Shown: positions 35,803 to 43,146 of the stretch, piece by piece | How positions within the stretch are numbered: the stretch's first letter is position 1 | Layout: each line of letters begins with the position of its first letter | Source: Streptomyces sp. SCSIO 30461 | GTDB taxonomy: Bacteria; Actinomycetota; Actinomycetes; Streptomycetales; Streptomycetaceae | Direction of reading: 5' to 3' | Assembly: GCF_037023745.1 (NCBI RefSeq) | Contig: NZ_CP146101.1 | Coordinates: 992,001 to 1,056,000, forward strand | Length of the DNA stretch: 64,000 nt | Translations under genes and position numbers: made by a program | Notes under the pieces: generated by a model | Databases searched by the model: none | The model's input: the letters and a program-made list of their open reading frames with translations, nothing else | What the model was told of the DNA's origin: nothing

Positions 35803-37146
35803 ATGACCACAACGGGGGCACACCAGGACTCGGCGGGCACCAGTGCCCGGTCCTGGCTGTGGTGGGGGAGACGGCGCAGTGCGGTGCTGGATGTGGGCCT
35901 GGGGCTCGTGTCCGCTGCGGAGTGTGCGCTGGAGGGGGTGCGCTTCGCGCAGGCGGCAGGGCTTGCGGTGCCGCTCGGGGTGCTCTTCGGGTTGGTCGCC
36001 GGGTCGGTGCTGGTGTTGCGGCGGCGGTGGCCGGCGAGTGTGGTGCTGGTTTCGATCGCGATCACGCCCGCGGAGATGGGCTTCGTGATGGCCATCGTCG
36101 GGCTGTACACGCTCGCCGCGTCCGAGGCGCCGCGGCGGATCATCGTCGCCTTGTCGGGGATGTCCCTGCTGGGGACGTTGATCGTGACGTTTGTGCGGAC
36201 TCGGCAGGACGTGGGGGCGGATTTCGATCCGGGGTTCTGGTACGTGCCGCTGGTGTCGCTTGTCATGTCGGTGGGGCTGACGGCGCCGCCGTTGCTCTTG
36301 GGGCTGTATGTGGGGGCGCGGCGCCGGCTGATGGAGAGTCTGCGGGAGCGGGCGGTCAGTCTTGAGCAGGAGCTGTCGTTGCTGGCGGATCGTGCGGAGC
36401 AGCAGGCTCAGTGGGCGCGTACGGAGGAGCGGACGCGGATCGCGCGTGAGATGCACGACGTGGTGGCGCATCGCGTGAGTCTGATGGTGGTGCATGCGGC
36501 GGCGTTGCAGGCGGTGGCTCTGAAGGATCCGCAGAAGGCGGTGCGGAACGCGGCGCTGGTGGGGGATATGGGCCGGCAGGCGTTGACGGAGTTGCGGGAG
36601 ATGCTGGGCGTGCTGCGTGCGGATGACGCGGGCGGCGCCGGTGGTGTGGCCGGTGGGCGTCCGGCGGCTGTGGGGCGTGCGGTCGCGGCGCCGCCGGTGC
36701 CGCTGGCCGCGGTGCGGGAGGCGGCCGCTGCGGCTGCTGTGGCGGCGGCGGAGGGTCCTTCGCTGGCGGATCTGGAGCCGTTGGTGGAGCAGTCCCGGTT
36801 GGCGGGGATGGCTGTGGAGCTGGTGGTGCAGGGCGAGGTGGGGCGTCCGTATCGCGCGGTGGTGGAGCAGACGGCGTACCGGGTGGTGCAGGAGGCTTTG
36901 ACGAACGTCCACAAGCATGCGGCGGGGGCGCGCACGTGGGTGCGGGTGGCGCATCGTGTGGGAGAGATCGCGATGCAGGTGGAGAACGGCCCGTCGGAGT
37001 GTGGTGTGGCTGATGCCGGTCTGCCGAGTGGCGGCAACGGTCTGGTCGGGATGCGGGAGCGGGTGTCGGCCTTGGGCGGGGTGTTCCTGTCGGGGCCTAC
37101 GGACGCGGGTGGTTTCCGGGTGTCGGCGGTGTTGCCTTCGGCGTGA
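35803..37146 (+). CDS. Sensor histidine kinase (HisKA_3/NarL-partner type) without adjacent regulator
   Basis: 447 residues. Residues ~25-175 hold four to five membrane spans; then a coiled linker and the HisKA_3 dimerisation helix with the phospho-His in 'REMHDVVAHRVSLMVVHA' (~222). A long Ala/Gly-rich insert (~275-325) separates it from the ATPase half, which keeps the N-box 'QEALTNVHKHAAG' (~369), a weak G1, and 'GNGLVGMRERVSALGG' (G2). It should pair with a LuxR-type response regulator, but none is next to it; the orphan regulators in this window are 12-16 kb away. Confidence 0.88.
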   Translation: MTTTGAHQDSAGTSARSWLWWGRRRSAVLDVGLGLVSAAECALEGVRFAQAAGLAVPLGVLFGLVAGSVLVLRRRWPASVVLVSIAITPAEMGFVMAIVGLYTLAASEAPRRIIVALSGMSLLGTLIVTFVRTRQDVGADFDPGFWYVPLVSLVMSVGLTAPPLLLGLYVGARRRLMESLRERAVSLEQELSLLADRAEQQAQWARTEERTRIAREMHDVVAHRVSLMVVHAAALQAVALKDPQKAVRNAALVGDMGRQALTELREMLGVLRADDAGGAGGVAGGRPAAVGRAVAAPPVPLAAVREAAAAAAVAAAEGPSLADLEPLVEQSRLAGMAVELVVQGEVGRPYRAVVEQTAYRVVQEALTNVHKHAAGARTWVRVAHRVGEIAMQVENGPSECGVADAGLPSGGNGLVGMRERVSALGGVFLSGPTDAGGFRVSAVLPSA

Positions 37147-37251: not shown

Positions 37252-37740
37252 TCAGGGGGCGGTGAGCCGGGTCGGCTGGGTTCCGGTGACCAGGGTGCCG
37301 AGCGCGTGGTCGACGGTGGGGCCGAGGTACCAGTCGCCGGTGTGGTCGAGGCTGTAGACGCGCCCTTCGGTGTCGATGGCGAGTACGGCTTGCGCATCGC
37401 CTTCCTCGCCGAGTGGCGCGAGTCGCGTGTCGAGGGCGCGGCCGAGGTCGCCGAGGGTGCGGGCGAGGTGGAGTCCGGCGAGTGGGTCGAAGCGGATGGT
37501 GGTGGGTGCGATCTGGCGGCCCCGTCCGGGCGGGGTGATGTGGAGGGCGCCGAATTCGGCCCAGGCTTCGACAGCGGCGGGGAAGACGCTGTGGCGGTGG
37601 CCGGCTGGGGGTTGGTGGTCGCGTAGCGCGTCGGCCCAGTGCTCGGCTTGCTTGATGTCCCAGCGTCCGGGTTGCCAGCCGGCTTGGCGCAGGGCGGCGT
37701 CGACGGATATGGGGAAGCGGGTGCTGTTGTGCTCGGTCAC
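37252..37740 (-). CDS. SUKH-3 family immunity-like protein
   Basis: 162 residues, all cytoplasmic. The SUKH-3 pattern is visible: 'DAALRQAGWQPGRWD', 'FPAAVEAWAEFGALHITPPG', 'IRFDPLAGLHLARTLGDLGR', 'LAPLGEEGDAQAVLAIDTEG' and 'VYSLDHTGDWYLGPTVDHAL'. SUKH domains are immunity proteins in polymorphic toxin systems, binding nuclease or deaminase toxin domains. It lies 57 bp downstream of a YwqJ-type deaminase on the same strand, the classic partner arrangement. GTG start. Confidence 0.85.
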   Translation of the reverse strand: MTEHNSTRFPISVDAALRQAGWQPGRWDIKQAEHWADALRDHQPPAGHRHSVFPAAVEAWAEFGALHITPPGRGRQIAPTTIRFDPLAGLHLARTLGDLGRALDTRLAPLGEEGDAQAVLAIDTEGRVYSLDHTGDWYLGPTVDHALGTLVTGTQPTRLTAP

Positions 37741-37797
37741 GATCCGGGTCTGCCGTCCTCGTCCTGCTCCTGCTGGTTCTGCTTCTGACTGTGGGGG

Positions 37798-38298
37798 CTA
37801 CTGGGCCGGTTCGACGGTCCGTACGCCGAAATGGTCGAGCATCGCCGCACAGGAGCGGCAGGGGGCCGCGTAGCTGCCGTGGAGAGGGTCGCCGTCCTCG
37901 CGTATGCGGCGAGCGGTGATCTTCGCTTGTTTGAGGGAGCGCCGGGCTTCGCTGTGGGTGAGGGGTTTGCGCTGGGCGCGTCTGGAGCGCGTGGTCTCGG
38001 CGGCGGCGAGGTGGCGGGAGAGCAGGATCGCCTCGGGGCAGCGTCCGGTGAAGCGTTCCCGCTGGCCGCTGGTGAGGGTGTCGATGAAGTCCTGTACCAG
38101 GGGGTGGAGAGTGGGTGGCTGGTCGGCTCTGCCCGCGGTGCAAGTGAGGGTCTCGCCGCGGACGGAGAGGGCTGCCGCGACGGTGGGGAGTATGCCGTCG
38201 CGTCTGAAGCGCGGGATCGGGATGTGCGCGGAGTCGTGTGAGTGGCTCCAGTTGAGCCGTGGGTCACCGGTTGTCGTTCCTGATGGCGCCGTGTGCAT
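37798..38298 (-). CDS. YwqJ-type nucleic-acid/nucleotide deaminase-like protein
   Basis: 166 residues with no signal or membrane segment. The zinc-deaminase signature is present as C87-P-E89 ('TGRCPEAILLS') and P146-C147-R-S-C150 ('YAAPCRSCAAMLDHFGV'), the [HC]xE...PCxxC pattern. The short size and the C-terminal 'FGV' helix are typical of YwqJ toxin-type deaminases. It lacks the long N-terminal delivery modules (LXG, WXG, RHS) of exported toxins. Upstream in the operon of the SUKH-3 gene. Target (DNA, RNA or free base) unknown. Confidence 0.8.
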   Translation of the reverse strand: MHTAPSGTTTGDPRLNWSHSHDSAHIPIPRFRRDGILPTVAAALSVRGETLTCTAGRADQPPTLHPLVQDFIDTLTSGQRERFTGRCPEAILLSRHLAAAETTRSRRAQRKPLTHSEARRSLKQAKITARRIREDGDPLHGSYAAPCRSCAAMLDHFGVRTVEPAQ

Positions 38299-38531
38299 GG
38301 TGCGTCTTCGTCCCTCCCGTGCCGCGACGCCCGCCGTCGCTGTGCACGCCCCCGAGTTGAAGGGACAGCCTGCCAAATGGGACGTGCCGTGTGGAAGCGG
38401 GGTGGTGGAAACGTGTGGTCGTGTCGCGGTGAATCCGGCTGCGGGTCACGTTGCGCTGGCGGGGTGTCACGGAGTGAGTGGAGGGCTCGGGGTGGCGGGG
38501 CGGTGGCGGTGGCACCTGTCGTATCACCGCA

Positions 38532-38537
38532 TAGGCT
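38532..38537 (+). promoter_or_regulatory. -10 hexamer for the nuclease-SUKH operon
   Basis: TAGGCT, 38 bases before the ATG at 38575, which has AGGGGG as ribosome site. The 275-bp divergent region 38299-38574 holds no other clear signal. Confidence 0.4.
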
Positions 38538-38574
38538 GTGGTCAATCAGCCAGATTCAGCAGGGGGCAACCGCC

Positions 38575-39588
38575 ATGACGACAGGTCGGCAAGGGCTGGG
38601 GGTCACTCCCAATCCCCGGGCCGGTGGACACGCCGAGCCGCCGAACTCTGCCTACGCCGGGCAGGTCGTGCACTTCCCGGATCCGGTGAGGGCTGCCCGC
38701 TACCCCTCGGGGGTGCGGGTGGATGAGCGTGGTTATCCGGATTTCTCACCTTTCGCGCGTGCTGCCGCGGAGGTCGCCGATCCGCCTGAGGGTTTCGGGG
38801 TCGATGAACTGCGGCTCACGGACTATGTGTCGGCGAATGCGGCGCTCGCGGCCTCCGGGCACGAGTTGTGGGACACGATTCCGGCGGTGACGACGCCGCA
38901 TGGCTGGACGTGGCATCACGTGGCGGACGGTCGCCGGCTTGAGCTGGTGCCGGTCGAGGTGAAGGCGCTGCTGAGGCATCACGGTGGTGTCGCGACGGCC
39001 GCGGTCGACCATGACAAGCGGGGTACGCGCCCGTTGCAGGAGTTCAGGCCGGTCCATTTCGGGCTGCCGAAGGCGTCGGTCTCCGTGTCCGAGCAGCAGA
39101 TGGCCGGTGCGGAGGAGGACTTGGGCTATCGCCTCCCCGGCGCGTACCGGTCCTTCCTGAAGGCGGCGGGTGGCTGTGCTCCGGTGGGCGTCGGGCTGGA
39201 TGTGAGCCTTGGGCTGCTGATCGACCAGCCGTTCTTCACGGTGCGCGACGAGGCCGCGGTCAATGACCTGGTGTATGTGAACAAGTGCCTGAGGGACCAT
39301 TTGACGAAGGACTACCTGGGTGTCGCATTTGTGCAGGGTGGTCTGCTGGCGGTGAAGGTCCGCGGTAGCGCGTCGGGTTCGGTGTGGTTTTGCGCGTATG
39401 ACGATGCCCGTGACCAGGACGGTTTGTCGGTGAACGAGCGGGTGGAGCGGCTGCTGCTGCCCTGTGGCGAGGATTTCGACGCCTTCCTGTCGCGTCTGGC
39501 GGGTAGTCCGCCGGAGTTGGAGACGGTGGCGAACCTGATGGTGGACGGCGGCTTCGCGCGCGCGGTCCCGGTCGCGGTGGAGGGGTGA
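38575..39588 (+). CDS. WHH-type HNH nuclease fused to SUKH-1 (SMI1/KNR4) domain
   Basis: 337 residues. Residues ~22-140 form an HNH/Endo VII toxin nuclease of the LHH/WHH group: 'NSAYAGQVVHFP', 'YPSGVRVDERGYPDFSPFA', 'LTDYVSANAAL', then 'PHGWTWHHVADGRRLELVPV' (W113-H114-H115) and 'LRHHGGVA' (H135-H136). Residues ~170-310 are a SUKH-1 domain: 'AEEDLGYRLPGAYRSFLKAA', 'GGCAPVG', 'DYLGVAFVQGGLLAVKVRGS', 'GSVWFCAYDD'. Toxin-type nuclease and immunity-type domain are thus joined in one chain. The ATG at 38575 follows AGCAGGGGG. Seven bases separate it from the next gene. Confidence 0.85.
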   Translation: MTTGRQGLGVTPNPRAGGHAEPPNSAYAGQVVHFPDPVRAARYPSGVRVDERGYPDFSPFARAAAEVADPPEGFGVDELRLTDYVSANAALAASGHELWDTIPAVTTPHGWTWHHVADGRRLELVPVEVKALLRHHGGVATAAVDHDKRGTRPLQEFRPVHFGLPKASVSVSEQQMAGAEEDLGYRLPGAYRSFLKAAGGCAPVGVGLDVSLGLLIDQPFFTVRDEAAVNDLVYVNKCLRDHLTKDYLGVAFVQGGLLAVKVRGSASGSVWFCAYDDARDQDGLSVNERVERLLLPCGEDFDAFLSRLAGSPPELETVANLMVDGGFARAVPVAVEG

Positions 39589-39595
39589 CAGCCGG

Positions 39596-42055
39596 ATGGT
39601 GACGTTCGCGCAGGCGCAGGAGCGCGCTGAGGAGTGGGTCAACGGCGACGTGTCCGCCCAGCTGCACCGCGAGGTACGCGTCAGGGAGTTCGAACTGGGC
39701 TTCGTGGTATGGGCGGAGGACCGCGCCGATGGCCCGACGTCGGACGGCGGTCGGCAGCGGCTGGTGATCGCCCGCGACAGCGGGGAGGCCACGCTGTGGC
39801 CCGGCCTGCCGGTGGGCGAGGTGATCCGGCGCTACGAGGAGGAGTACGGCGTTCCGCGGGGTGAGGAGCCTCCGGCTGCCGCTTCGCCTGAGCGTATCGA
39901 TCTGAACCAGACGTCGTTCATGCTGAGTCCGCCCGAGTGGCTTCAGGAAGCGGCGCACAGTCTGGGCATCCCGGATCAGCGGAGTGATGCCGATGGGACG
40001 TCGGCGGCTTCCGGCAGTGGCGGCGGCGGTGCGGGCGACCCCGCGCAGGCGCCGCCGGTGGCGGGGGGTGCGGACCTGGAGCCGACCGGGTCGGACCGGG
40101 TGCCGCCCGCACCGGCTCCCGGACCGGTACCGGCTCCCGTGCCCGCCTCGACTGCCGATGCGACTCCTTGGGCGGGGACGGATACGAGTTCCCGCCCCGG
40201 TGAGGCCGCTGACGGCACCGACGGGTCGGTGCCGTTGCCCGAGACGGTGTTCGCTCCGCCGTTGTCGGGTTCCGATGACGATGACGTACCGCCGCCTTCG
40301 GTCGGCGCGGATCTGCCGACCGCGTTGATGTCCGGTGGCAGCGGGCTGCCGCCGACCGCGGTGACCCCTGCGTACGACGTGCCGGGGCGGCAGGGTGCTC
40401 AGCCCCTGAGGGACCAGCCGGGCCGGCCGGGTGAGCCCGTGGACCAGCCGCCCGCGTCCGGGGCGCCTGCCACCCGGGCCGCCGGCGATATCGCCGACGC
40501 CGCCACCAGCAAGGCCGTGCTCCCGCCGCGCGGTACGCGTACCGCGCGCGGCGGGGAGATGACGCCTCCGCCACCGGCTCCTCCCGGCATGCCCGGTGCG
40601 CGGCCGGTCGCCGCCCCGGGGGGGCCGCCGCCCGGGGCTCCCGTCGACGACGGTTACGTTCCGACGCAGATGGTGCCGCGGCAGGTGCCGGATGGCCCGC
40701 GGTCGGCTCAGCCGCCCGGACCGCCCGGACCGCCCGGACCGCCCGGACCGCCCGGACCGCCGGGTGCTCCCGGTACTCCGCCAGGTGTGCACCACGCGGC
40801 GACGATGCTGGCCAACCCGAGTCCGAACCCGGTGCACGGCGGTCCTGGCGTGCCCCAGCCTCCGGGGCCTCCTGCCACGCCGTCCGTTCCCGGTACTCCG
40901 CCCGGCGGCGTCCACCACGAGGCGACGGTACTGGCGAACCCGAACCCGAACCCGGGCCCGAACCCGAGTCCGTACCCGGTGCAGGGCCCGCCGCCCATGG
41001 CTCCGGCTCCCGCACCGCCCCCGTATCCGCAGCCCCAGCCCCCCGCCGCGTACGGGTATCCGCAGCAGCCTCCGGCCGGTCTGCCGACCGTCGGCCCCGG
41101 CTACCAGGCCGTGCTGCGCTACCGTGCGCCCGACGGATCCGAGCAGCAGCTGATCCGCCGCTCCGCGCCGGGTACTCCGCACCCGGAGTGGCAGATCTAC
41201 CACGAGCTGCGCGCCATGAACGTGCCCAACGACCAAGTGCTCGAACTGCACACCGAGCTGGAGTCCTGTGAGCTGCCCGGTGGCTACTGCGCCCGGATGA
41301 TCCGGGAGACCTGGCCGCAGGCGCGGATCACCAGCATCGCCTCGTATGGCAGGGACCATGCGAGCCGCCAGGGCGGGATGCGGCAGCTGCTCACCCACCA
41401 AGGCGAGCTGCACCAGGTCGCGGACGGTCCGGCGCGCCCGGTGCCGGTGCGTGCGCCGCTGCCGCCGGTGCAGCCGGCTCCCCCGCTGCCGCCGGAGGGG
41501 ATCGCGCAGGAACTGGCGGGGACGTTCGGCCCGCAGGGCGTCTGCCGGTTCGACCAGCGGGCGGTTTCCCGCCAGGGCGTGCCGGATCTGGTGGCGCGCA
41601 CTCTGGTGTGGGCGGGTCTGCCGGCGGACTTCGGGCCGTTCTTCTGGGCGCAGCCGGCTCAGCCGGTGGTGCCGACGCTGGCTGAGCTGGCCCAGCAGCG
41701 CCAGGTGCGGCCTGCGTCGGACGCCGCCTCGTATCTGGTGGTCGGTACCGATTTCGGCAAGGCGATCTGCGTCCAGTACGGCACCGCGCACATCGTCGCG
41801 GTTCCGGTGGAGGCGGGTCCCGGCGGTCAGCCGGTGGCCCCGCAGTTCGTGAACAGCGGTCTGCCCGAGTTCACTCGCTGTCTGGCGATGCTGGGCCGGA
41901 TGTGGCGGCTGCGGTTCGGGCTTGATCCGGCGCAGGCGGGCCGCTGGACGGTCGACTTCCAGGCGCAGCTCGCCGCGCTCGATCCGGCGGCGCTGTCGTC
42001 GCCGGAGAGCTGGTGGTCCGTGCTGCTGGAACAGATGTGGGACGGACTGATCTGA
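39596..42055 (+). CDS. Three-part protein: small N-terminal domain, collagen-like linker, deaminase-like domain, SUKH-4-like domain
   Basis: 819 residues. Residues 1-85 form a small alpha/beta domain like YrhB/Imm35 ('LHREVRVREFELGFVVWAED', 'GEATLWPGLPVGEVIRRYEE'). Residues ~86-500 are disordered and Pro/Gly/Ala-rich, including a PGPPGPPGPP collagen-like run (~378-390) and a repeated 'HHxATxLANPxPNP' segment. Residues ~500-600 look like an SCP1.201-type deaminase: 'TPHPEWQIYHEL' (HxE), 'ELHTELESCELPGGYCARMI' (C-x6-C) and 'YGRDHASRQGGMRQLL'. Residues ~635-819 resemble SUKH-4 ('FGPQGVCRFDQ', 'LVVGTDFGKAICVQYGTAHI', 'VNSGLPEFTRCLAMLGRMW'). No secretion signal. ATG start with GAGGGG ahead; transcribed with the nuclease-SUKH gene. 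Confidence 0.78.
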   Translation: MVTFAQAQERAEEWVNGDVSAQLHREVRVREFELGFVVWAEDRADGPTSDGGRQRLVIARDSGEATLWPGLPVGEVIRRYEEEYGVPRGEEPPAAASPERIDLNQTSFMLSPPEWLQEAAHSLGIPDQRSDADGTSAASGSGGGGAGDPAQAPPVAGGADLEPTGSDRVPPAPAPGPVPAPVPASTADATPWAGTDTSSRPGEAADGTDGSVPLPETVFAPPLSGSDDDDVPPPSVGADLPTALMSGGSGLPPTAVTPAYDVPGRQGAQPLRDQPGRPGEPVDQPPASGAPATRAAGDIADAATSKAVLPPRGTRTARGGEMTPPPPAPPGMPGARPVAAPGGPPPGAPVDDGYVPTQMVPRQVPDGPRSAQPPGPPGPPGPPGPPGPPGAPGTPPGVHHAATMLANPSPNPVHGGPGVPQPPGPPATPSVPGTPPGGVHHEATVLANPNPNPGPNPSPYPVQGPPPMAPAPAPPPYPQPQPPAAYGYPQQPPAGLPTVGPGYQAVLRYRAPDGSEQQLIRRSAPGTPHPEWQIYHELRAMNVPNDQVLELHTELESCELPGGYCARMIRETWPQARITSIASYGRDHASRQGGMRQLLTHQGELHQVADGPARPVPVRAPLPPVQPAPPLPPEGIAQELAGTFGPQGVCRFDQRAVSRQGVPDLVARTLVWAGLPADFGPFFWAQPAQPVVPTLAELAQQRQVRPASDAASYLVVGTDFGKAICVQYGTAHIVAVPVEAGPGGQPVAPQFVNSGLPEFTRCLAMLGRMWRLRFGLDPAQAGRWTVDFQAQLAALDPAALSSPESWWSVLLEQMWDGLI

Positions 42056-42135
42056 GTGGCTGCCCGTAGGCATGGCCGCCCGAGAACAAGGCTGTCCGGG
42101 TACATGGCCGGATGGGGGTCTGACGGCGTGCCGTC

Positions 42136-42175
42136 CTGACGTGCTGACGTGCTGACGTGCTGACGTGCTGACGTG
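42136..42175. repeat. Five tandem copies of CTGACGTG
   Basis: An 8-bp unit repeated five times without error, just before the hairpin at 42181-42225 and after the SUKH-4 gene. Confidence 0.9.
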
Positions 42176-42180
42176 CACGG

Positions 42181-42225
42181 ACGAAGGGCGTCCGAACCGC
42201 ATCGCGCGGATCGGGCGCCCTTCGT
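42181..42225. terminator. Bidirectional terminator between SUKH-4 gene and truncated symporter
   Basis: ACGAAGGGCGTCCGA pairs with TCGGGCGCCCTTCGT (15 bp, one G-U type mismatch) around a 15-base loop; flanking bases extend pairing. Confidence 0.8.
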
Positions 42226-42240
42226 CGTCTGACGTCGTCG

Positions 42241-43146
42241 TGCGGCGGCCCCGAAGCCGATCACGGCGATCAGCAGGCAGGTGACGACGACGGTGGACAC
42301 GGCCCACGACATGGAGCGGCGTACGGCGGTGGCGCTGCGGGCGATGGACATACGCATGGTGATGTGCGGCAGTACCGCCGCGCCGAGTACGACGGTCAGC
42401 TGTGCGCTGATCATGTCGAGTCCGCCGTCGAACTGGAGCCCGGAGGTGAGGTAGGCGTCTCCGGCACCGCTGCCCTTGGCTGCCGCGTCGAGCAGCGCGG
42501 GCAGGCTGAAGTCGAAGCGGTCGAGCACGAGTGCGGCGATCGCGGTGGCGGCGCCGAGCAGGACGACGGTCTTGACGATCTGGATGAACGCGGTGCCCTT
42601 CATCCCGCCGATCGCCGCATACGCGATCATCAGGATGCCGAGGCAGACGATGGACCCGGTCTTGAAGCCGTCCGAGTGGAAGCCCAGGACGAAGGCGAGC
42701 AGGTCTCCGGCGCCCGCGAGCTGGAAGACCACCAGCGGGAGCAGCGCGGCGAGAGTGACGGCGCTCGCGGTGATCCGTACGGCGGGCCCGGGGGTGCGGC
42801 GGGTGAAGACGTCGCCCATGGTGAAGCGGCCCGCGTTCCGAAGTGGTCCGGCGAGCAGGAACATCATCAGCACCAGGGAGAGCACGGTGCTGAGGGCGAG
42901 GGTCAGCCCGTCGTAGCCGGTGAGGGCGATCACTCCGATGGTGGCGAGCACCGTGGACGCGGAGATGTAGTCGCCGGCGATGGCGAGTCCGCTCTGCACG
43001 GGGCTGAGGGAGCGGTAGCCGGTGTAGAACCCGCCGAGGTCGTCCCGGTCGGGGCCGGTCATCACGCACAGCAGCAGAGTGACGGTGACAACGGCGACGA
43101 ACGCGACGAACGACATGGTCTGGGCGTCTGAGCCGAAGCTGGTCAT
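42241..43146 (-). pseudogene. Truncated solute:sodium symporter (SSS, ActP-like)
   Basis: From the ATG at 43146 about 300 codons read a clean SSS permease: 'GFYTGYRSLSPVQSGLAIAG' and 'DYISASTVLATIGVIALTGY' (core spans), 'GRFTMGDVFTRRTP', 'FQLAGAGDLLAFVLGF', 'IAYAAIGGMKGTAFIQIVKT', 'MISAQLTVVLGAAVLPHITM'. It stops at 'VIGFGAAA' (42241), after which the frame runs into non-homologous sequence; roughly the last 200-240 residues of a ~540-residue family are lost. The ATG overlaps the stop of an upstream gene remnant. It cannot make a full transporter. Confidence 0.8.

Follow-up and report, generated by a model that had tools for sequence, protein, structure and literature searches.

In a 64,000-nucleotide stretch of DNA from Streptomyces sp. 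SCSIO 30461 (contig NZ_CP146101.1, positions 992,001 to 1,056,000 of the forward strand; hereafter the window), we analysed a four-gene island at 37252..42055. Two deaminase domains, one WHH nuclease domain and three SUKH domains lie there in two divergent units, an inventory first proposed in an initial annotation of the sequence and borne out by Pfam matches. The island is core, not polymorphic. We propose that a toxin-immunity cassette of a type VII secretion system (T7SS) was domesticated as a latent, self-inhibited set of intracellular enzymes, a reading to which we give about an even chance (roughly 0.5). Within it, domestication is well supported, and we infer inhibition in cis, regulated release and nucleic acid as the target.

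Domain anatomy of the island

The minus-strand unit encodes a YwqJ-like deaminase of 166 residues (37798..38298; PF14431, 2.2e-26 on a longer open reading frame), with active-site residues C87, E89, C147 and C150 in the window copy, and, across a gap of 57 bases, a SUKH-3 immunity-type protein of 162 residues (37252..37740; PF14433, 1.4e-55). The first plus-strand gene (38575..39588) encodes a 337-residue protein in which a WHH nuclease domain (residues ~1-150) is fused to a SUKH-1 domain (~160-337). It matches PF14414 (1.8e-15), PF12639 (4.7e-11) and PF09346 (SMI1_KNR4; 6.2e-10), and its motif residues are W113, H114, H115, H135 and H136. Seven bases separate the end of this gene from the ATG of the next, a plus-strand gene (39596-42055) for an 819-residue deaminase-SUKH-4 protein. 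That protein consists of an N-terminal immunity-like domain (residues 1-125; 39596..39970), recognised by blastp and without a Pfam match; a Pro/Gly/Ala-rich linker of ~370 residues (39971..41092); an XOO_2897-type deaminase domain (41093..41395; PF14440, 1.4e-35; H552, E554, C558, C565); and a SUKH-4 domain (41504..42034; PF14435, 1.4e-47). Each plus-strand toxin domain thus shares its chain with a SUKH domain. Two starts are corrected here, the likeliest positions being 38298 for the YwqJ gene and 38575 for the WHH gene. NCBIfam offers no name for any of the four proteins. In S. coelicolor, going by gene order only, the island would be SCO3115-SCO3118.

A fixed locus in Streptomyces and most of its family

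PF14440 was matched in 115 of 121 Streptomyces genomes (our own included), 114 of them at E <= 2.1e-34, and the island or part of it was found in all 121. The seven genomes without a strong match comprise six misses and G001, in which only a paralogue was matched. Gene loss was rejected for these seven in favour of broken assemblies or gaps within the Pro-rich gene, given the orthologues found: SUKH-3 in 7/7 and WHH-SUKH-1 in 6/7, at 77-83% identity and often at contig ends. In G008, the C-terminal part of the deaminase-SUKH-4 gene lies close to glmU.

Loci were fetched from 100 of the 115 matched genomes (our own and 99 others; the rest lie mostly on short contigs). All four genes stand together in 95 of them, more than chance would give, and the SUKH-3 orthologue is likewise present in 95. 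Four of the five incomplete loci meet contig ends (L084, L085, L101, L116), and the fifth (L097) was broken up by a rearrangement in G012, whose SUKH-3 gene lies at another place. The same genome has an additional deaminase-SUKH-4 copy that shares 57% identity with that of the window (L285; G012:C1:3762519-3763493). The surroundings are stable too: glmU was matched in 90 of the 100 stretches, and the neighbouring histidine kinase (HisKA_3; 35803..37146, plus strand; PF07730, 2.7e-16) in 94.

Beyond the genus, the deaminase-SUKH-4 region was matched in 118 of 121 Streptomycetaceae genomes drawn at family level. The g2 genomes gave no match (0/3) and four g5 genomes gave weak ones only (best 6.4e-17), leaving strong matches in 15 of the 17 sampled genera. 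All four genes are present in 15 of 18 core loci fetched from other genera, and one further stretch (L184) runs into a contig end. Of 197 genomes drawn at class level, 21 had PF14440 (16 of them Streptomyces) and 17 the WHH-SUKH-1 protein (again 16 from Streptomyces). These locus and genome counts agree with the initial annotation, which had described an intracellular set in a core chromosomal position, and show the set to be co-conserved. It had also named independent segregation of the genes as a sign against such a set. The four genes mostly stay together, but the two operons can come apart: the YwqJ-SUKH-3 pair stands close to glmU without the other unit in two g2 loci (L209, L210), and the WHH/deaminase pair stands alone in the L186 and L196 stretches from other genera.

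Constraint and active sites

We took median Nei-Gojobori ratios of nonsynonymous to synonymous substitution (dN/dS) from random pairs, at most 1500 of them, whose dS was 0.1-1.5; the values are rough because of GC-rich saturation. The XOO-type deaminase (0.154), WHH (0.178), SUKH-1 (0.199) and SUKH-4 (0.224) domains all lie around GlmU (0.203), followed by the N-terminal domain (0.246, 383 pairs), the kinase (0.349) and the linker (0.370). These medians place the two fused proteins under GlmU-like constraint and the YwqJ-SUKH-3 unit at a kinase-like level. Several alignments, the dN/dS values and the linker counts include our own locus twice (from the window and as L021); recounts of unique copies exclude the duplicate.

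Among unique Streptomyces copies, the YwqJ site reads C-E-C-C in 96/96, the XOO-type site H-E-C-C in 100/100 and the nuclease motif WHH-H-H (WHH...HxG) in 97/97. H-E-C-C is also present in all 120 of the closest proteins listed in a public search. Aligned core copies of other genera retain the YwqJ and WHH residues throughout; the XOO-type site, in 58 such copies, reads H-E-C-C in 36, Y-E-C-C in 12, H-D-C-C in 9 and H-Q-C-C in 1, most of the changed sites belonging to g14 genomes. Loss of catalytic residues, which the initial annotation had named as a possible objection, is therefore absent from Streptomyces, partial in other genera and general in the T7SS-type clade described below. Constraint and intact active sites together argue that catalysis matters in Streptomyces.

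Structure models

An AlphaFold2 model of the deaminase and SUKH-4 domains, including the inter-domain linker, was a confident and rigid two-domain model (mean predicted local distance difference test score, pLDDT, 93.4; predicted template modelling score, pTM, 0.91). With the Pfam architecture, it suggests an enzyme and an inhibitor-type domain held in one chain. The modelled SUKH-4 domain has the Smi1/Knr4-type fold; yeast Smi1/Knr4 differs in having no enzyme domain, and the middling Z scores can mean a common arrangement only. The modelled deaminase domain has a deaminase fold, with free-nucleoside cytidine deaminases and DddA/DddB among its matches at similar Z. A sequence search of solved structures with the deaminase-SUKH-4 profile gave no match, and WHH-SUKH-1 gave one marginal, partial match to an Rhs protein (8bd1_A, E 0.006).

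Such a range of deaminase matches would also suit ordinary housekeeping enzymes acting constitutively on tRNA, mRNA, nucleotides or incoming DNA, with the SUKH domains as scaffolds. Near-universal presence in a single place points the same way, as does constraint on the WHH and XOO-type domains at the level of GlmU. We nevertheless consider this improbable: every enzyme has a paired inhibitor-type domain, one genus-level clade has lost an active site yet kept the gene, and WHH domains are said to be largely confined to polymorphic toxins (PMC3482391).

No sign of export

The initial annotation had seen no export route, and none emerged from scans of the proteins or of the core loci. The highest 19-residue Kyte-Doolittle mean starting within the first 50 residues was 0.99, with no hydrophobic N terminus in the island proteins, and no Tat motif was found in them. 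They contain a single W-x-G tripeptide (residue 68 of the 819-residue protein) and gave no Pfam match to a WXG100 or LXG model, and no T7SS-type toxin or EccC was matched in 118 core loci. With all these scans empty, an export reading was dropped. Since no export machinery adjoins the island, the four genes are probably used inside the cell. Families of polymorphic toxin domains are present (PF14414, PF14431, PF14440), but polymorphic toxin systems also have an N-terminal trafficking module or linked export genes, a variable C-terminal toxin and a patchy distribution; here there is no such module or linkage, and the domains are constant throughout.

T7SS-linked relatives

Distant homologues of the deaminase-SUKH-4 protein, ~430 residues long and 34-43% identical to the core protein, lie in T7SS toxin loci. 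A WXG100_2/Gln_amidase toxin is encoded in 9 of 11 Streptomycetaceae paralogue stretches (L198, L211, L212, L213, L219 and L274-L277). No such toxin was found in L272 and L273, where ~5-7 kb were covered on each side; six of the 11 loci were checked for T7SS genes over that distance per side. Nor was one found in four loci outside the family (L204-L207). The initial annotation had held that homologues beside a secretion gene would count against an intracellular role: this situation does exist among the distant paralogues within the family, but neither outside it nor among the 118 orthologous loci.

Like the core island, the Streptomycetaceae T7SS (WXG100) loci unite the N-terminal domain, a deaminase and SUKH-4 in one protein. 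Unlike it, their companion proteins adjoin a secreted toxin, have lost the deaminase site and have no long Pro-rich linker. In this clade (the best 120 of 227 proteins found with the L212 query), D replaces the catalytic E in 118, all four residues occur in none and both cysteines in 22. By blastp, the core N-terminal domain resembles stand-alone proteins of 101 and 104 residues in T7SS loci, and also the tail of a g5 SUKH-3 protein. Imm35/YrhB-like is its likely name.

The other unit has a T7SS counterpart as well. In two loci of the basal genus g5 (L202, L203), WHH-SUKH-1, YwqJ and SUKH-3 adjoin a WXG100_2-Gln_amidase toxin that itself ends in WHH. The WHH-SUKH-1 fusion, YwqJ and SUKH-3 stand side by side as in the core; in contrast to the core, they adjoin a toxin and all lie on a single strand, away from glmU, YwqJ reads C-D-C-C and no deaminase-SUKH-4 gene was seen. 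Core and other copies separate on a 100/100 branch of a 97-row unrooted tree. The simplest reading of these comparisons is that the core island descended from a T7SS toxin-immunity locus and lost the secreted toxin.

The genome of our strain carries a T7SS-type locus of its own (L198; C1:2064001-2084000). It encodes an FtsK/SpoIIIE-type ATPase, a small helical protein, an AAA/WD-like protein, an N-terminal-domain protein, a deaminase-SUKH-4 protein whose deaminase looks dead, and a 1732-residue WXG100_2-Gln_amidase toxin ending in a divergent XOO_2897 domain. Outside the family, L204-L207 encode a 430-residue deaminase-SUKH-4 protein that has lost the active-site cysteines and stands without T7SS genes; in L204 and L207 the gene adjoins those for a 778-789-residue protein and an FGGY-like kinase. 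A distinct group of deaminases of ~290-500 residues (L216, L217, L218) has the motif C-x-E...C......C and no SUKH-4, with AAA/WD-like genes nearby in L218.

Solo toxin-immunity cassettes are known in polymorphic toxin loci (PMC3482391), and the island might be a silent store of cassettes that recombine into T7SS toxin genes, or a set of effectors exported in trans. We give this very little credence: none of the 118 core loci has a T7SS toxin, and the fused architecture and fixed order are kept family-wide, without diversification.

The T7SS relatives also bear on a resident immunity shield, in which the SUKH and N-terminal domains would neutralise incoming T7SS toxins of kin and the toxin-like domains would serve as ligands, stabilisers or decoys. 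The island has four immunity-type domains; the T7SS-adjoining relatives keep the fusion although, in the best 120 of 227, none retains H-E-C-C; and the XOO-type domain looks inactive in a minority of core copies outside Streptomyces. Published polyimmunity loci resemble the island in bringing several immunity-type domains together, SUKH prominent among them. They differ in that the island has toxin domains within and between its immunity domains: polyimmunity loci are uninterrupted runs of immunity genes in one orientation, said in PMC3482391 never to be interrupted by toxin genes, whereas the island has toxin domains and divergent units. In addition, Streptomyces copies retain every active-site residue of the three enzymes, and the constraint is housekeeping-like rather than diversifying. 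A shield is possible, but we regard it as unlikely.

Phage defence

The initial annotation had suggested internal defence or self-restraint. Of the two, we would keep self-restraint, read as inhibition of the enzymes in cis; defence against phages or plasmids gained no support. The island is single-copy, near-universal and slow-evolving, and adjoins glmU rather than lying in a defence island. A PADLOC scan of six proteins (the four of the island, a neighbouring coiled-coil protein and the kinase), with a library of systems known to 2023, gave no match, and the defence reading was dropped. In CapRel-SJ46 a toxin shares one polypeptide with the domain that neutralises it (PMC9712102), and by the same logic the fused proteins of the island could be anti-phage toxin-antitoxins that are activated when a phage protein binds the SUKH domain. 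The folds are different, however, and CapRel is diversified in a Red Queen conflict with phages, in contrast to the core position and housekeeping-like constraint of the island. Together with the empty scan, this makes a CapRel-type system very unlikely.

Promoter region, linker and coiled-coil neighbour

The two units are separated by a divergent promoter region of 276 bases (38299..38574, no strand). It contains CATAGGCTGT at 38530-38539, facing WHH, and TGCCAAAT at 38371-38378, which reads ATTTGGCA facing YwqJ. Of 91 aligned intergenic regions, 76 contain CATAG[GT]CTGT and 63 contain ATTTGGCA. An AGGCTGT/GCTGT-like core is common to both promoters (CATAGGCTGT; ATTTGGCA..CTGT); -35 elements were sought in both and could not be made out.

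Downstream of the island, 111 of 114 loci (94/96 in Streptomyces, 17/18 in other genera) have a same-strand gene for a predicted coiled-coil protein of ~300 residues, and in 99 it is the next gene; the 114 are the loci with a gene-called anchor, four of the 118 being excluded for having none. It is poorly conserved (mean identity 47%), and its similarity to DivIVA is weak, under the Pfam cut-off (27.7 bits at best versus 28). SCO3119 is listed as an orphan kinase (PMC9739842); by gene order from it, the coiled coil would correspond to SCO3114, for which a rod domain, weak FilP similarity and a diffuse mCherry signal are described (PMC2680258), as is a weak affinity for cellulose (PMC6224456). 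The linker of the 819-residue protein has repeated T-x-[LF] motifs (AATMLA, PTQLV, ATVFAPP), with AATML in 69/101 and ATMLA in 67/101 rows (our own copy counted twice). Both the linker and the coiled-coil neighbour hint at a positioning role inside the cell; that the repeats could be phosphothreonine/FHA sites is an idea only.

In the window itself the coiled-coil gene is gone, together with the C-terminal half of a symporter, at a deletion scar (42056..42241, no strand). Homology to L068 ends at 42055 and restarts at 42242 inside the truncated symporter gene (41827-43146, minus strand; ~535 residues in relatives). The scar carries ~7 copies of CTGACGTG, and ~1.9 kb of L068, including the coiled-coil gene, is missing. 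The island can therefore persist without the coiled coil, at least for a while.

Discussion

Taken together, these results favour a latent, self-inhibited enzyme set with regulated release. Two observations, the fusion with inhibitor-type domains and the absence of export signs, suggest that the enzymes stay restrained within the cell that makes them, and catalysis appears to matter there. A set of T7SS-type polymorphic toxin-immunity cassettes would have been domesticated early in Streptomycetaceae; the secreted toxin and export genes would have been lost, and the remainder would have become a core intracellular locus. Three enzymes predicted to act on nucleic acids (the WHH nuclease and the XOO_2897-type and YwqJ-type deaminases) would each have a SUKH partner, within one chain for two of them and in the next gene for the third. 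The SUKH and N-terminal immunity-like domains may hold the catalytic domains until a change in cell state acts on a SUKH domain, or on the disordered long linker, and so frees the enzymes or brings them into position.

Four points weigh against this proposal. The YwqJ and SUKH-3 proteins (dN/dS 0.380 and 0.370) evolve no more slowly than the adjoining kinase (0.349). Of the 58 core XOO-type copies from other genera, 22 lack a full active site, so that catalysis by this domain is dispensable somewhere. Four invariant residues are, by themselves, weak evidence at ~87% mean identity. Finally, the direction from T7SS to core depends on the comparison of loci, the tree being unrooted.

What the enzymes might act on invites speculation. 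Dying Streptomyces cells show degraded DNA and active nucleases (PMC4530454), and developmental death has been connected with injection particles of the weapon type (PMC10020575), which makes a use in death or development attractive: the island could be an executioner, or a switch remodelling DNA or RNA, that acts on the cell's own nucleic acids in hyphal cell death or development and is coupled to the FilP/DivIVA-like coiled-coil gene. We regard this as a long shot. The death nucleases of S. natalensis and S. coelicolor show up as gel bands, at ~25 kDa (PMC4530454), the 337-residue WHH-SUKH-1 chain is larger than that, and none of the results of this sequence analysis links the island to cell death or development. 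If true, it would provide named candidates for the nucleases of Streptomyces programmed cell death.

The pieces and the fusion idea are already known, since SUKH is listed as a partner of YwqJ, XOO2897 and WHH toxins, with occasional SUKH-toxin fusions, in PMC3482391. In the literature covered, mostly without subscription papers, we found no account of the conserved locus and no Streptomyces paper naming SCO3115-SCO3118. Iyer 2011 and Zhang 2011 (Nucleic Acids Research, NAR) are reportedly the primary sources for these deaminases and for SUKH.

For annotators, the finding counsels caution: 'SUKH-4 family immunity protein' is by itself no evidence of warfare. Genes for polymorphic toxins and their immunity proteins would be expected to occur patchily and to evolve fast; in this antibiotic-producing family the same domains make up a fixed locus, and two of the enzyme domains combine GlmU-like constraint with intact sites, in contrast to the dead sites of the clade beside secreted toxins. 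This makes directly testable the question whether weapon-type deaminases and nucleases are used on self in the normal life of Streptomyces, and how they are held.

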